This document shows, one piece after another, positions 29,051-35,183 of a stretch of 35,183 nucleotides of DNA. The first letter of the stretch is position 1. Every line of letters begins with the position of its first letter. The notes under the pieces were generated by a model, which did not search any database, was not told the origin of the DNA, and saw only the letters and a list, made by a program, of their open reading frames with translations. The stretch is from Limisphaerales bacterium (GTDB taxonomy: Bacteria; Verrucomicrobiota; Verrucomicrobiia; Limisphaerales; BOG-1460), in NCBI GenBank assembly GCA_003159675.1, contig PLQC01000120.1, positions 13,565 to 48,747 of the forward strand. Direction: 5' to 3'. Made by a program: the position numbers and the translations under genes.

Positions 29051-30976
29051 ATGCCCACGCTCCTCACCGCCACCGAACTGACCGTGCGCTACGGCGAACG
29101 CGCGGTGCTGGATGGCGCGACGCTCGCGATCGACGAGGGCGACCGCATCGGTCTGGTTGGACGCAATGGCTGCGGCAAGACGACGTTCCTCCGCATCCTC
29201 GCCGGGCTGCAATCGCCGGACAGCGGGGATGTGACGCGGCGGCGCGAGCTGGTCGTCAGTTATCTGCCGCAGGACTTCATGCTCGATGCGGCCAAGTCGC
29301 TGGAAGAAAACATCCGCGACGGCGCGCAGCATGTGCTTGGTTTGATCGCGGAATTTGAATCGTTGCCGCATGACTCGAAGCGCCATGAGCAGTTGGAGCA
29401 TCGCATCATCACGCTGGAAGGCTGGACGCTGGACCAACGCATTGCCACGGCCATGTCGCACCTGAATTGTCCCGCCGGCGACCGTCGCATCGACACGCTT
29501 TCCGGCGGCGAGAAGCGACGCGTGGCACTGTGCCGCGCGATTGTTTCGCGGCCCGATCTGCTGATTCTCGACGAGCCGACCAACCATCTGGATCCGGACT
29601 CCATCGAGTGGGTCGCGGAGTTTCTCGACGAATTCCCCGGCTCATTCCTCGTTGTCACGCACGACCGCTACTTTCTCGACCGCGTGGCGAAGCGCATGGT
29701 CGAGCTTTCCGATGGCCGTTTCTTCTCGCACGACGGCAATTACACCGATTACCTGCTGGCCAAGGCCGAGCGCCAGGCCGCCGACGCGACCATCGAGCAC
29801 AAGCGCCAGATGTTTCTGAAGCGGGAACTGGCCTGGGTGCGTCAGGGTCCACGGGCGCAGCGCAGCAAGCAGAAGGATCGTTTCGAGCGCTACTACGATA
29901 CGGCCGCGCAGGACGGGCCGGTCATTGAGGAAGACGTCGAGTTTTGCATTCCCCCGCCGCCGCAGCTCGGCAACCGCGTCGTCGAGGTGGCCAACCTCGG
30001 CATGGATCTTGGCGGGCGCACGTTGTTTCGCGGATTCAATTTCACGTTCCAGAACGGCCGGCGCATCGGAGTCGTCGGAAGAAATGGCCTCGGCAAGACG
30101 ACGCTGCTCAAAATCATCATCGGTGAACTCAACCCCACGGAAGGCACGGTCAAGACCGGCCAGCTCACAACATTCAACTACGTGGATCAGGGCCGGCTGC
30201 AATTGCGCGAGGAACGCACGGCGCTGGAGGAAGTCGGCGACGGCACGGAATTCGTCATCTTCGGCGACGGCAAGCTGTCGTTGCGCGCCTACCTCAGGCG
30301 GTTTCTGTTCGCCGACGACCGGATCATGACGCAGGTGAAATATCTGAGCGGCGGCGAGCGCAGCCGGCTGTTGCTTGCGCGGATCCTGAAAAACGGCGGC
30401 AATTTTCTCATTCTCGACGAACCGACGAACGATCTCGACCTGCCGACATTGCGCGTGCTCGAGGAAGCCTTGATCGCTTTCCCCGGCGTGGTGCTGGTCG
30501 TGAGTCACGACCGCTATTTCCTGAACCGGGTCTGCACCGACGTGCTGGCGTTCGAGGGCGACGGCAAAATTCACCACAGCGTCGGCGATTACGATTATTA
30601 CCTGGAGAAGAAGAAGCGCTTGACCGTGGCGATCCCGCCACGGCGGGATCAGAGCGCCGCCATCATTTCCACAAACAAATCAGCGGCGCACTCGCGCGTC
30701 GCTGCCACGAAGGCAACGAAACTGGCCAAACCCCGCAAACTTTCGTTCAAAGAATCACGCGAGCTCGAAGGCATGGAGGCGCAAATCCACGGCGTGGATG
30801 CGGAAATCGTCCGTATTGAAGATCTGTTCGCTTCGCCGGATTTTCACCTCACACACGCGACTCAAACGCGCCAACTCACGGCCGATCTCGCCGCTGCCAA
30901 GGAAAATCTCGCGAAGTTCTACGCGCGCTGGGAGGAATTGGAGGCAATCAAGGCCGCGGCGGAACGGCTCGGTTAA
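29051..30976 (+). CDS. uup: ABC-F family ATP-binding protein, Uup-like
   Basis: Two ABC domains (GLVGRNGCGKTTFLRIL, LSGGEKRRVALCRAI; GVVGRNGLGKTTLLKII, LSGGERSRLLLARIL) and a C-terminal coiled coil (LEGMEAQIHGVDAEIVRIEDLFASPDF...). Confidence 0.9.
   Translation: MPTLLTATELTVRYGERAVLDGATLAIDEGDRIGLVGRNGCGKTTFLRILAGLQSPDSGDVTRRRELVVSYLPQDFMLDAAKSLEENIRDGAQHVLGLIAEFESLPHDSKRHEQLEHRIITLEGWTLDQRIATAMSHLNCPAGDRRIDTLSGGEKRRVALCRAIVSRPDLLILDEPTNHLDPDSIEWVAEFLDEFPGSFLVVTHDRYFLDRVAKRMVELSDGRFFSHDGNYTDYLLAKAERQAADATIEHKRQMFLKRELAWVRQGPRAQRSKQKDRFERYYDTAAQDGPVIEEDVEFCIPPPPQLGNRVVEVANLGMDLGGRTLFRGFNFTFQNGRRIGVVGRNGLGKTTLLKIIIGELNPTEGTVKTGQLTTFNYVDQGRLQLREERTALEEVGDGTEFVIFGDGKLSLRAYLRRFLFADDRIMTQVKYLSGGERSRLLLARILKNGGNFLILDEPTNDLDLPTLRVLEEALIAFPGVVLVVSHDRYFLNRVCTDVLAFEGDGKIHHSVGDYDYYLEKKKRLTVAIPPRRDQSAAIISTNKSAAHSRVAATKATKLAKPRKLSFKESRELEGMEAQIHGVDAEIVRIEDLFASPDFHLTHATQTRQLTADLAAAKENLAKFYARWEELEAIKAAAERLG
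30631..30650. repeat. Perfect 9-bp-stem palindrome in the uup inter-domain linker
   Basis: GATCCCGCC-AC-GGCGGGATC; encodes the IPPRRDQ part of the low-complexity linker before the C-terminal domain. Confidence 0.8.
30859..30976 (+). repeat. Direct repeat A1: 3' end of uup (intact copy)
   Basis: Encodes TQTRQLTADLAAAKENLAKFYARWEELEAIKAAAERLG*; paired with 31831..31947. Confidence 0.93.
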
Positions 30977-31031
30977 AGCACATACGCTCCCGCCGTGCGC
31001 CGACCTGCCCCCTAACCTTGCTTAATCCTCT

Positions 31032-31096
31032 AAGGCGTGTTTCCAAAATGGACAATTGTGGACTGCGGCGGCAAGCTGATTTTGAGAACACGCCCT
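31032..31096. repeat. Imperfect terminal-inverted-repeat pair (MITE/IS-end-like remnant) upstream of antitoxin 1
   Basis: Left aaggcgtgtttccaaaa; right ttttgagaacacgccct, whose reverse complement is agggcgtgttctcaaaa. Confidence 0.55.
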
Positions 31097-31154
31097 AATA
31101 ACCGTCCTGCCCCTTTTGGATTGATTCTTTCCAAAGTAATGCTAGGCTTACCGC

Positions 31155-31412
31155 ATGATTGCCAATGTATCAGTCAAAGGACAGATGGTCATTCCCGAAG
31201 CCATCCGCGAACAGGCGCGGATCAAAACCGGCGACAAGTTGGATGTCGGTTACGCCAACGGGCTGATTGTGCTGCGGAAACGCGAGGCACTGACCCCGGC
31301 CCGTGTGCGTTCGCTGCTGCTGGCCGGACGCGGGCTTCCCGGGATGACACCGGCGGATGAAACTGCCGTCACCCGCGCCATGCAACAGGTGAGAAGCCGC
31401 CGCAAACAGTGA
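31155..31412 (+). CDS. AbrB/SpoVT-family antitoxin
   Basis: NVSVKGQMVIPEAIREQARIKTGDKLDVGYANGLIVLRKRE. Confidence 0.9.
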   Translation: MIANVSVKGQMVIPEAIREQARIKTGDKLDVGYANGLIVLRKREALTPARVRSLLLAGRGLPGMTPADETAVTRAMQQVRSRRKQ

Positions 31413-31816
31413 AAGTGGTCTTCGACACCAATGTGGTGGCCAGCGCGAGTTTCTGGCGTGCTGCGCCATTTGACTGTCTGGCGGCATGGGCGAAAGGCCG
31501 CTGCCAAGCCGTGGTCGGCCCCGCGCTGCTGGCCGAGTATCACGAAACTATCGAAGAACTTCGGCTGGACTATCCCCGGCGCGAGCCGGTCGAATGGGTT
31601 GACGCCCTGACCGAGTCGGCTGAATTGATTTTCCCCACGGAACGCGCCACGGGGGCAACGCCCGATCCCGGTGACGAAATGGTTCTGGAATGCGCCTTGG
31701 CGGCAGAAGCAGATTATATCGTGAGCGGCGACAAGAAACATCTGCTGGCACTTCGGGAATTCCACGGCATCCGGATAGTCTCCCCGTCGGATTTTCTGCG
31801 CCGGCTGGCCATCTGA
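31409..31816 (+). CDS. PIN-domain toxin (VapC-like; 'toxin component, PIN family')
   Basis: KVVFDTNVVASASFWRAAPFDCL...DPGDEMVLECALAAEADYIVSGDKKHLLAL PIN acidic motifs; GTGA overlap with the antitoxin stop. Confidence 0.92.
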   Translation: MKVVFDTNVVASASFWRAAPFDCLAAWAKGRCQAVVGPALLAEYHETIEELRLDYPRREPVEWVDALTESAELIFPTERATGATPDPGDEMVLECALAAEADYIVSGDKKHLLALREFHGIRIVSPSDFLRRLAI

Positions 31817-31830
31817 AATAACAAACGAAA

Positions 31831-31947
31831 GCAACGCAAACCAGCCAGCTCACAGCCAATCTCGCCGCCTCGAAGGAAAATCTCGCGAAGCTCTACGCGC
31901 GCTGGGAAGAATTGGAGGCGATCAAGGCGGTGGCGGGCGAAGTCTAA
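31831..31947 (+). repeat. Direct repeat A2: displaced, diverged 3' end of uup
   Basis: Open reading TQTSQLTANLAASKENLAKLYARWEELEAIKAVAGEV* aligns along its length with the uup C-terminus. Starts about 14 nt after the toxin stop. Confidence 0.93.
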
Positions 31948-31990
31948 TTGCCAAACCAAAACGGCAAGCGTCCCGGGCCGCCGCAATGAA

Positions 31991-32557
31991 ATGCTTGACC
32001 GCGAATTAATTTTAATTTTTTCTGTAAAGATAGAAATAAAACTAAACCCAGTCATCGAGAAGTTGGTGCTGCATTGGGGGGAGATGGGCTCGCGCTGGGG
32101 CATCAGCCGCATGGTGGCGCAGATTCACGCCTTGCTTTACTTTTCGCCCAAGCCGATGGCGGCGGATGAAATCGTGGACGCGCTGGGCGTTGCTCGTTCC
32201 CATGTGAGCAACAGCCTCAAGGAGCTGCAATCTTGGGGCGTCGTCAGGGTGGTTCATGTCATGGGCGATCGCCGCGAACACTTCCAATCCATCAAGGATG
32301 TCTGGCAATTGTTTGAGATTCTCCTGGATGAACGCAAGCGGCGCGAGGTTGATCCCACCCTCAAGACGCTCCGTGAAACCCAGGCACTACTGAACGATGG
32401 CGCGAAAGTTGACACGCACACCGCCGGCCGGGTCAAGGAGATGCTGGAGTTTTTTGAGCAAATGGACGGCTGGTTTGGCGAAGTCCGGCGGATGCCGTTG
32501 GAATCGCGCGTGAAACTGGTCAAATGGGCATCCAAACTTCGTGGCTGGCTGGGCTAA
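31991..32557 (+). CDS. GbsR/MarR-family transcriptional regulator
   Basis: VIEKLVLHWGEMGSRWGISRMVAQIHALLYFSPKPMAADEIVDALGVARSHVSNSLKELQSWGVVRVVHVMGDRREHF. The true start may be downstream of 31991. Confidence 0.85.
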   Translation: MLDRELILIFSVKIEIKLNPVIEKLVLHWGEMGSRWGISRMVAQIHALLYFSPKPMAADEIVDALGVARSHVSNSLKELQSWGVVRVVHVMGDRREHFQSIKDVWQLFEILLDERKRREVDPTLKTLRETQALLNDGAKVDTHTAGRVKEMLEFFEQMDGWFGEVRRMPLESRVKLVKWASKLRGWLG

Positions 32558-32608
32558 ATATTTTTGAACCTGATTTTCTCAATTCACAGCAAAACCAGAA
32601 TTTTAACT

Positions 32609-33547
32609 ATGAAATGCAAAACCCATGCGGTGACCGGTGCATTTGGCTATTCCGGTCGTTACATCGCGACCCGCTTGCTGGAGCAAGGCCAGACTGTCAT
32701 CACGCTGACCAATTCGATGAACCGGGCGAATCCTTTCGGCGGCAAAGTTCGCGCGTATCCGCTCGCGTTTGCCGATCCGGGCAAGCTGGCGGCGGCGCTG
32801 GCCGGAGTGGACGTGCTCTACAACACCTACTGGGTTCGCTTCAATCACCGGACCTTCACCCATGCACAGGCGGTGCAAAACACCCTGGCGCTGTTCGAAG
32901 CGGCGCGGCGGGCGGGAGTCAGGCGCGTGGTTCATGTCAGCATCACCAATCCGTCGGAGGCTTCGCCGCTGGAATACTTTTCCGGCAAGGCGCAACTGGA
33001 GCGAGCGCTGCAAGCCAGCGGCCTATCCCATGCGATTCTGCGGCCAACCGTGCTGTTCGGGCGGGAGGACATACTTATCAACAACATTGCTTGGGCACTG
33101 CGACGTTTTCCGTTTTTTGCAGTTTTCGGCGACGGCGCGTATCGGCTGCAACCCGTCCATGTGGATGATCTGGCGGACTTGGCGGTGACCGAGGGAATGC
33201 GGACTGAAAATGCCGTCATTAACGCCATCGGCCCCGAGACATTCGCTTACAGGGACTTGGTCCATGCCGTCGGCACAGCGATTGGGCGGCCTCGGCCCTT
33301 GCTTAATGTGTCGCCAGGGATGGGATGTTTCTTTGGAAAACTGTTGGGTGTGTTCATGCGCGACACCTTCATCACGCGCGAGGAGATTCGCGGGCTGATG
33401 GACGAGCTGCTTTATGTGACCACGCCACCGACCGGCAAAACGCCGTTGACGACCTGGATGCAGAAAAATGCCGCCATGTTGGGGTTGCACTACGCCAGTG
33501 AATTGAATCGTCGTCGCGACCGGCAAACACCGTATTTCCGGGAATGA
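32609..33547 (+). CDS. NAD(P)-binding atypical SDR / NAD-dependent epimerase-like (NDUFA9-like)
   Basis: VTGAFGYSGRYIATRLLEQG Rossmann motif (GxxGxxG variant); FSGKAQLERALQASGLSHAILRPTVLFGRED; VHVDDLADLAV. Confidence 0.88.
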   Translation: MKCKTHAVTGAFGYSGRYIATRLLEQGQTVITLTNSMNRANPFGGKVRAYPLAFADPGKLAAALAGVDVLYNTYWVRFNHRTFTHAQAVQNTLALFEAARRAGVRRVVHVSITNPSEASPLEYFSGKAQLERALQASGLSHAILRPTVLFGREDILINNIAWALRRFPFFAVFGDGAYRLQPVHVDDLADLAVTEGMRTENAVINAIGPETFAYRDLVHAVGTAIGRPRPLLNVSPGMGCFFGKLLGVFMRDTFITREEIRGLMDELLYVTTPPTGKTPLTTWMQKNAAMLGLHYASELNRRRDRQTPYFRE

Positions 33548-33639
33548 CCTGGATCAACCATTCACGGGGCACATGACTTGCGTGAATGCTAATGCGACGC
33601 AGTGGCAAGCATCGGCCTTCCCATTGCCATTGCAGCTTC

Positions 33640-33706
33640 GTAGAGTGGCTGGTCTGTGCCGGCCACGTTATATGATCTGATTCCGCGGGATGAGAACCAC
33701 GGCAAC
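33640..33706 (+). repeat. Direct repeat B1: displaced 5' end of the helicase gene
   Basis: gtagagtgg...ctgtgccggccacgttatatgatctgattccgcgggatgagaa..acggcaa ([17 protein letters not shown]) matches 34471..34537. Ends about 8 nt from the toxin-2 stop. Confidence 0.93.
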
Positions 33707-33713
33707 AGGAATT

Positions 33714-34121
33714 TCAGGGCAGCAGGCACGGCACGACCTGGCGGCTGTGGCGGCGGTAGATTTTGAAATCGGTATCGGTGGTCAGCACCACCGGTTCGGG
33801 CAGCGTTTCAGTCATGCGCACGAGGCAGGCATCGGCCAGGCTCATGGGCACATCGGCGTATTTGTCCATCAAGTCAAGCACCGGCGCAAGTTGATCGCCC
33901 AACTCAAACGAGAGCACGACCGCTTCCTGCCGCAACAAATCCTTCAGTCGCGGGGCGCCCTTTTCGCCGAGAAGATGGAAGGCCTCGGTCAAGGCCGCCT
34001 CGCAGGTGAGCCAGGGCCAGGGCAGCGTGCCGGCTTGCACGGCGATCCAGTCATGATGCTGGTCGTCGCGGCTGAGCAACGCCACCAGGACGGAACTATC
34101 GGCGATGTAGTTTTTTGGCAC
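33714..34121 (-). CDS. PIN-domain toxin, VapC-like (GTG start)
   Basis: YIADSSVLVALLSRDDQHH...TCEAALTEAFHLL...SLADACLVRMTE...VLTTDTDFKIYR. Confidence 0.92.
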   Translation of the reverse strand: MPKNYIADSSVLVALLSRDDQHHDWIAVQAGTLPWPWLTCEAALTEAFHLLGEKGAPRLKDLLRQEAVVLSFELGDQLAPVLDLMDKYADVPMSLADACLVRMTETLPEPVVLTTDTDFKIYRRHSRQVVPCLLP

Positions 34122-34356
34122 GGATCAACCCGGGAAGGTATTTTTTCTTGTTGCGGGCCAGGTCGGTCGGCAGGCCTTCAACCGAACCGATGAGGTCGCC
34201 CAACAGCTCCCGCATCGTGCCGCGCTTGCCGGGCGGGCGGGGCGACTGGCGCAGCCGTTCCCGCACCACGTCAGATTTCGAGACGCTGCGCGCCCGCGAC
34301 TCGTGCTCGATCTCCGTGACGAGGGAATCGGGCAGCCGGACGGTCAACGTTTTCAT
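34096..34356 (-). CDS. Ribbon-helix-helix (CopG-like) antitoxin
   Basis: MKTLTVRLPDSLVTEIEHESRARSVSKSDVVRERLRQS; overlaps the toxin start by about 26 nt. Confidence 0.88.
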   Translation of the reverse strand: MKTLTVRLPDSLVTEIEHESRARSVSKSDVVRERLRQSPRPPGKRGTMRELLGDLIGSVEGLPTDLARNKKKYLPGLIRAKKLHRR

Positions 34357-34470
34357 GGACCAAGTGTAAGACAAATGTGGCAGTCATGCAAAACGATTGT
34401 TTCAACGTCGTCACTTCGTTGAGCAGCCGGAGGATTTGCGCATCAGTCTTTTCAACGCGGCTCCCCCTCC

Positions 34471-34537
34471 GTAGAGTGGAGTCCTGTGCCGGCCACGTTA
34501 TATGACCTGATTCCGCGGGACGAGAAGCCCGGCAATG
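34471..34537 (+). repeat. Direct repeat B2: 5' end of the intact helicase gene and its leader
   Basis: gtagagtgg...ctgtgccggccacgttatatgacctgattccgcgggacgagaa..ccggcaa; the counterpart of 33640..33706. Confidence 0.93.
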
Positions 34538-35183
34538 ATGTCTTGCTGGGGCGCTTTCTGGAATACGTGGAAGGACGGCGGCTGCAACTTTATCCCGCCC
34601 AGGAATCGGCCATCCTCGAGTTGTTCGAGGAAAAGAACGTCATCCTGAACACGCCCACCGGGTCGGGCAAATCGCTCGTGGCCACGGCGATGCACTTCCA
34701 GGCCATCGCCCAGGGACGACGCTCCATTTACACCTGCCCGATCAAGGCGCTCGTGAATGAGAAATTCATGGCCCTCTGCCACGAGTTCGGCCCCGACAAT
34801 GTCGGCCTCAGCACCGGCGATGCGTCGGTCAATCGCGACGCGCCCATCCTTTGCTGCACCGCGGAAATCCTCGCCAACATCGCGCTGCGCGAGGGCGCGC
34901 AGGCCAATGTGCAGGAGGTGGTCATGGACGAATTCCATTATTATGCCGATCGGGAGCGCGGCGTGGCGTGGCAGGTGCCCTTGTTGACGTTGCCACAAGC
35001 GCGGTTTCTCCTTATGTCCGCAACGCTGGGTGACACCACGTTTTTCGAGGAGGAACTCACGCGGGTCAACCGGCGGCCAACGGTTGCAATCTCATCAACG
35101 CACCGGCCGGTCCCGCTGGAGTATGCCTACTCGGAGTTGACGCTGGCCAAAACGCTGGAAAGCCTCGCCGCCGAGGGCAAGGC
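34486..35183 (+). CDS. DExH-box (Ski2-like) helicase, 5' part only, runs off the window (absent from the ORF track)
   Basis: GTG start translated by hand: [71 protein letters not shown]...[15 protein letters not shown]...LLMSATLGD. Confidence 0.93.

Follow-up and report, generated by a model that had tools for sequence, protein, structure and literature searches.

Toxin–antitoxin modules between intact and duplicated gene ends in a Limisphaerales genome: candidate insertions with long target duplication

Stand-alone toxin–antitoxin (TA) modules seldom carry a mobility gene, and how they reach chromosomes is an open question, one that is raised by a 35,183-nt stretch of DNA from a Limisphaerales bacterium (Verrucomicrobiota; assembly GCA_003159675.1, contig PLQC01000120.1, positions 13,565 to 48,747; hereafter the window). 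Two type II TA modules with predicted PIN toxins lie here between a uup-type ATPase gene and a helicase gene, and each sits between the intact end of one of these genes and a truncated copy of that same end. We consider it fairly probable that each module is a minimal TA unit inserted at a gene boundary with a long, variable target duplication. Judged from sequence comparison across the order, about one in ten PIN-toxin modules of these soil and water bacteria bears such a gene-end duplication scar. The genes and repeats of the window are arranged as follows.

29051 to 30976, plus strand: intact gene for a uup-type ABC-F ATPase, proposed target of insertion 1 (Pfam ABC_tran, ABC_tran_CTD; 85-88% amino acid identity in relatives)
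30857 to 30962, plus strand: repeat copy A, 3′ coding end of the intact uup gene (by repeat comparison)
31155 to 31412, plus strand: MazE/AbrB-type antitoxin of module 1 (PF04014, E=1.7e-7)
31409 to 31816, plus strand: predicted PIN_3 toxin of module 1 (PF13470, E=4.4e-18)
31831 to 31948, plus strand: repeat copy B, uup tail remnant with its own stop (91/106 to copy A; reads ATQTSQLTANLAASKENLAKLYARWEELEAIKAVAGEV, then stop)
31991 to 32557, plus strand: MarR-type regulator between the two remnants (PF12802; close homologues paired with an epimerase elsewhere in genus g42 and in G106)
32609 to 33547, plus strand: NAD-dependent epimerase-like gene between the two remnants (PF01370)
33590 to 33705, plus strand: repeat copy C1, a remnant of the helicase upstream spacer and truncated 5′ head (48/52 core; spacer homologous to L071, a relative described below)
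33714 to 34121, minus strand: predicted PIN toxin of module 2 (PF01850, E=3.2e-6)
34096 to 34359, minus strand: RHH antitoxin of module 2 (PF01402, E=3.2e-5)
34426 to 34535, plus strand: repeat copy C2, spacer and 5′ head of the intact helicase gene (homologous to the uup-helicase junction of L071)
34486 to 35183, plus strand: DEAD/DEAH helicase gene, proposed target of insertion 2, continuing beyond the window (PF00270)

The two copies of the module 1 repeat (30857-30962 and 31831-31936) are identical at 91/106 positions without gaps, and the core of the module 2 repeat (33654-33705 and 34484-34535) at 48/52, with a gapped extension upstream that gives 87% identity over 70 nt (33636-33705/34467-34535). 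The truncated uup copy starts 14 nt past the toxin stop at 31816, and the truncated helicase copy ends 8 nt from the stop of its toxin, which lies on the opposite (minus) strand; both distances had been estimated in an earlier reading of the letters alone (the sequence-only reading), and the repeat comparison bears them out. The same is true of its statements that the host gene is not inactivated, the intact gene end being kept beside the module, and that two different TA families share one geometry, since Pfam assigns a MazE/AbrB-type antitoxin and PIN_3 to module 1, and RHH_1 and PIN to module 2. Each module thus has a PIN gene adjoining the gene of a DNA-binding antitoxin, as expected of a VapBC-like type II TA module. 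Between the window repeats there are only antitoxin and toxin open reading frames (ORFs) and no integrase or transposase gene, the module boundaries show no inverted repeats, the stretch as a whole has no second match in its own genome, and an Rfam scan of 30500-34800 gave no match, with no search aimed at attC made. Upstream of the AbrB antitoxin, at 31026-31100, there is a short palindrome resembling a miniature inverted-repeat transposable element (AGGCGTGTTTCCAAAAT...ATTTTGAGAACACGCCCT), of which no second copy was found in the 0.62 Mb sampled of this genome.

The sequence-only reading had allowed that two such cases in one window could be coincidence, and had suggested a scan for gene-end duplicates next to toxin stops. 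Our survey covered 163 PIN-toxin loci from genomes of the order, a module being defined as the toxin frame with the adjacent antitoxin, and compared the 500 nt before the antitoxin with the 250 nt past the toxin stop, within the same module or between mismatched modules, at a threshold of at least 45 bits. The TA loci were picked non-randomly, by profile score and genome; most genomes were metagenome-assembled genomes (MAGs), examined through sampled contigs and regions of limited length with simple gene calls of our own. Own flanks matched in 16/155 modules, or 14/153 without the two window modules, as compared with 6/23,870 mismatched flank pairs, a difference of more than 300-fold. Equal match rates in own and mismatched pairs could therefore be rejected, and coincidence no longer serves to explain the window. 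Inverted-strand matches between own flanks were found in 3/155. The control consisted of 544 non-TA gene units of similar size (549 before four TA loci and one double count were excluded), about 6 of which matched (Fisher p=4e-6 versus the PIN modules), so that the suggested scan did find enrichment at the PIN modules of the order. One control match, next to locus L309, is a UPF0175/DUF3368 pair that is likely a toxin–antitoxin pair, and another (L355, 1915-2583) is a 185-aa ORF beside an AAA-type ATPase ORF, with a flanking repeat that is a 48-nt, 96% copy of the neighboring gene's 3′ end. These two matches suggest that the process extends beyond the PIN families searched, and perhaps beyond TA modules. 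The presence of 80-90% identical copies in independent assemblies argues against an assembly artefact.

The targets vary in nearly every case and include both 3′ and 5′ gene ends. The duplicated 3′ ends are those of genes for UbiA (L309, 90 nt, stop included), an MFS protein (L337, 94 nt, stop included) and UbiD (L314, 58 nt), and of genes named by eye as DUF1553-like (L356, 67 nt), prepilin-peptidase-like (L253, 45 nt) and HEAT-like (L259, 34 nt); the 5′ ends are those of xseA (L303, 34 nt) and of an mqnC-like radical SAM gene at a second TA of L309 (87 nt). Among the cases, the shortest repeat measures 34 nt and the longest 130 nt or more. No integrase gene is present in the inserts examined, and no shared end motif is apparent, as judged by eye rather than by motif search. 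The right-hand copy starts 4-163 nt past the toxin stop (median 46), compared with 111 nt from toxin stop to next ORF in other modules (p=0.0097), which upholds the closeness of the repeat to the toxin stop. The rule that the truncated copy always abuts the stop did not survive, however: among 10 assignable cases, the intact gene flanks the antitoxin in 7 but the toxin in 3 (p=0.34). The idea of a defined cassette format is not supported either, in view of the range of repeat lengths and targets, the lack of a shared end motif and the occurrence of non-TA cargo with the same geometry, and the sequence-only interpretation as a whole is only partly supported.

Empty sites in relatives show that the TA module together with the duplication is an insertion. 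The L309 region of genome G024 (contig C3, 2621-5475) contains, in the space of 3 kb, TA modules from two different families, both accompanied by a duplicated gene end, in a nested double layout like that of the window, i.e. UbiA-TA-remnant followed by mqnC-like remnant-TA-gene. Genome G075, from the same genus, is without both of these TA insertions; there, a single UbiA end is joined directly to the sequence that G024 has beyond its remnant. The insertion at L356 is common to two species (G036 and G080), with matching copies (62/67 identical between the intact ends and 61/67 between the remnants), indicating that it was inherited.

A corresponding site for the window is found in L071, from the Limisphaerales MAG palsa_1396, where uup (85% amino acid identity) is followed after ~60-75 nt by the helicase gene (88%), with a spacer homologous to the sequence upstream of both helicase-head copies of the window. 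Because uup adjoins the helicase gene there, the window lineage has gained everything between the two genes, namely TA1, remnant B, the MarR-epimerase pair, remnant C1 and TA2. In genus g42 and in G106, MarR and epimerase genes form a free-standing pair, and on account of this free pair at other loci they were rejected as a part of a TA cassette. The two modules probably reached the uup-helicase interval in separate insertions, and the MarR-epimerase pair entered it as well. A single donor fragment running from uup tail to helicase head, dropped between two convergent toxins, is possible but disfavored, because in the nested layout of G024 the two TAs share a strand, and cases with a single TA are more frequent. 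At L011 (G024, contig C6), the target is again uup and the cargo is different: the uup tail is duplicated around a 156-aa ORF with no Pfam or PADLOC match, and the remnant, a 34-nt copy (29/34 identical), begins directly after the stop of this ORF.

We propose that the inserted unit would consist of promoter, antitoxin and toxin, and that it would come to lie between a target gene end that remains whole and a truncated duplicate of that end. Joining may proceed through a staggered break or a sister chromatid, or by homology-anchored capture of incoming DNA, and would require no encoded recombinase. An insertion would survive only if host gene, TA promoter and toxin stop were all spared, and this selection could account for the asymmetry in spacer length. 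Because a deletion between the repeats, restoring the empty site, would be penalized by TA addiction, which is putative here, the insertions are probably stabilized by it and would persist.

Several observations weigh against insertion with target duplication. The differences between intact ends and remnants are biased to third codon positions (52/96, pooled), a share of 0.54 as opposed to 0.425±0.047 in simulated local duplication followed by remnant decay (3/300 simulations); decay of an in-situ duplicate as judged on module 1 alone was dropped, there being too few sites. At L314, the C-terminus in the sister species G080 is that of the remnant, and the intact gene of G036 has another terminus: ubiD of G080 ends in MDAAVKAKVEKLF and a stop, the G036 remnant reads MDAAVKAKIDALF, and the intact G036 gene ends in MDEVTRKKIDALFGHKP and a stop, the 92% DNA identity to G080 stopping at 2673. 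In addition, the non-TA controls are mostly resident core genes, and retention of TA inserts is not separable from insertion rate in that comparison. The codon-position bias and L314 give a hint, drawn from sequence, that one gene end was imported. Under such homology-anchored import, incoming DNA, either linear and joined by homology-facilitated illegitimate recombination (HFIR) or circular and joined by a single crossover, would carry a relative's gene end together with the TA; the incoming end would pair with the resident gene, the resident end would be displaced past the TA to become the remnant, and the intact gene would keep the incoming end or a mosaic. The result would be akin to e14 in icd and to displaced effector ends in type VI secretion system (T6SS) and Rhs loci, except that host recombination would do the work of an integrase. 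HFIR has indeed been proposed for displaced T6SS gene ends (PMC5361080), and at L309 the intact end is as distant from the remnant (71/90) as from the sister species (72/90). However, the intact ends at L309 and L337 are not abruptly foreign relative to G075, at L337 the intact end and the remnant resemble each other more than either resembles G075, the pattern predicted by local duplication, and import requires donors that already bear a TA at the same gene. With the three-way comparison mixed and the codon-position bias pointing the other way, we retain target duplication as the probable origin and regard an imported gene end as possible but rather doubtful.

An extended form of these ideas, which we think unlikely, is that TA units with gene-end repeats are recombinase-free mobile elements: they would excise as circles carrying a gene end, this end would direct them, through homologous recombination by the host, to the corresponding gene in related genomes, whose terminus would be swapped, and addiction would block back-deletion. 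It is very unlikely that the modules are remnants of site-specific integrative elements of the phage or integrative and conjugative type that used gene or tRNA ends as att sites and lost their integrase. While the gene-end geometry and L210, a relative of module 1 beside a tRNA-Arg gene with a 39-nt, 100% identical 5′ half, are consistent with such an origin, integrase genes are lacking from the inserts examined, almost every case has a different target, gene 5′ ends among them, and the repeats vary from 34 to >100 nt with no common core seen; a tRNA-type att remnant was rejected as a general account, being largely refuted by target diversity. Hardly credible is a chance placement of local or interspersed repeats around TAs, which would fit those flanking repeats that are intergenic multi-copy or low-complexity families (L004, L006, L384), but conflicts with the gap between own and mismatched flanks, the few inverted matches and the empty sites.

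Other repeats were noticed near PIN loci. At L165 (13483-14083) and L003 (own genome), behind a tRNA-Met gene come a tandem array of 60-bp repeats of its 3′ half, one more copy and a PIN TA module, and 3 kb downstream the tRNA-Met 5′ end recurs as an identical stretch of 33 nt, an arrangement resembling an att-type region. The AbrB-PIN_3 module of L210 lies between the tRNA-Arg 5′ half (895-933) and the whole tRNA-Arg (2216-2291), and module and tRNA-Arg copies lie inside an outer 163-nt repeat. At L169 (1551-1602 and 2287-2338), a 52-nt copy (87%) of a carB-internal stretch stands against the next gene's stop, and the carB ORF ends after 520 aa. AT-rich interspersed repeats with a TTTCAGC/TTTCTGC motif, probably a separate repeat family, surround PIN loci of the window's own genome (L167, L004, L006).

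A scar in about 10% of PIN modules would offer dated, polarized insertion events for study, and gene-end remnants beside TA genes should be labelled as such in annotations, not called as small genes. The TA genes are ordinary in themselves, with an RHH or AbrB antitoxin upstream that the predicted PIN toxin overlaps or adjoins, as in VapBC and MazE-PIN modules. In e14, which resides in icd, and in tRNA-targeting islands, the target gene end is kept intact with a truncated end at the far junction, but, unlike the present cases, these elements have an integrase of their own and a single fixed site. In Vibrio cholerae T6SS effector arrays and at Rhs orphan tips, old gene 3′ ends are stranded downstream of a new toxin-type module, and HFIR has been proposed (PMC5361080). 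The displaced 3′ ends beyond a newly arrived toxin-type module are alike, but the anchor there is the toxin locus itself, whereas here unrelated housekeeping genes are involved.

Contrary to the sequence-only reading, which knew of no named system with this layout, there is one in 'insertion with long target duplication' (LTD), whose primary descriptions are reportedly those of Nobusato et al. 2000 and Furuta et al. 2010. LTD is known for restriction–modification (RM) genes, first from genome comparison in Helicobacter pylori, and has been reviewed as a route for RM units that involves no known mobile element and yields duplications on the order of 100 bp (PMC3874152, PMC3031569, PMC1643837). 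As in LTD, the present cases have long, variable direct repeats of this order around a self-contained and (here putatively) addictive gene unit, an empty single-copy site in relatives (G075, L071) and no known mobile element as carrier. They differ in host, which is Verrucomicrobiota, in repeats that are often gene termini, and in cargo, which is not RM but type II TA with a PIN RNase and occasionally other ORFs, suggesting that a DNA-cutting product is not required. No report of LTD-type insertion for type II TA modules was found in full-text searches of an open-access library. On the sequence evidence, the present cases look like the LTD process operating with type II TA modules, which would extend it from DNA-cutting RM enzymes to predicted RNase-type toxins and argues that addiction or DNA uptake, rather than restriction cutting, is common to both.

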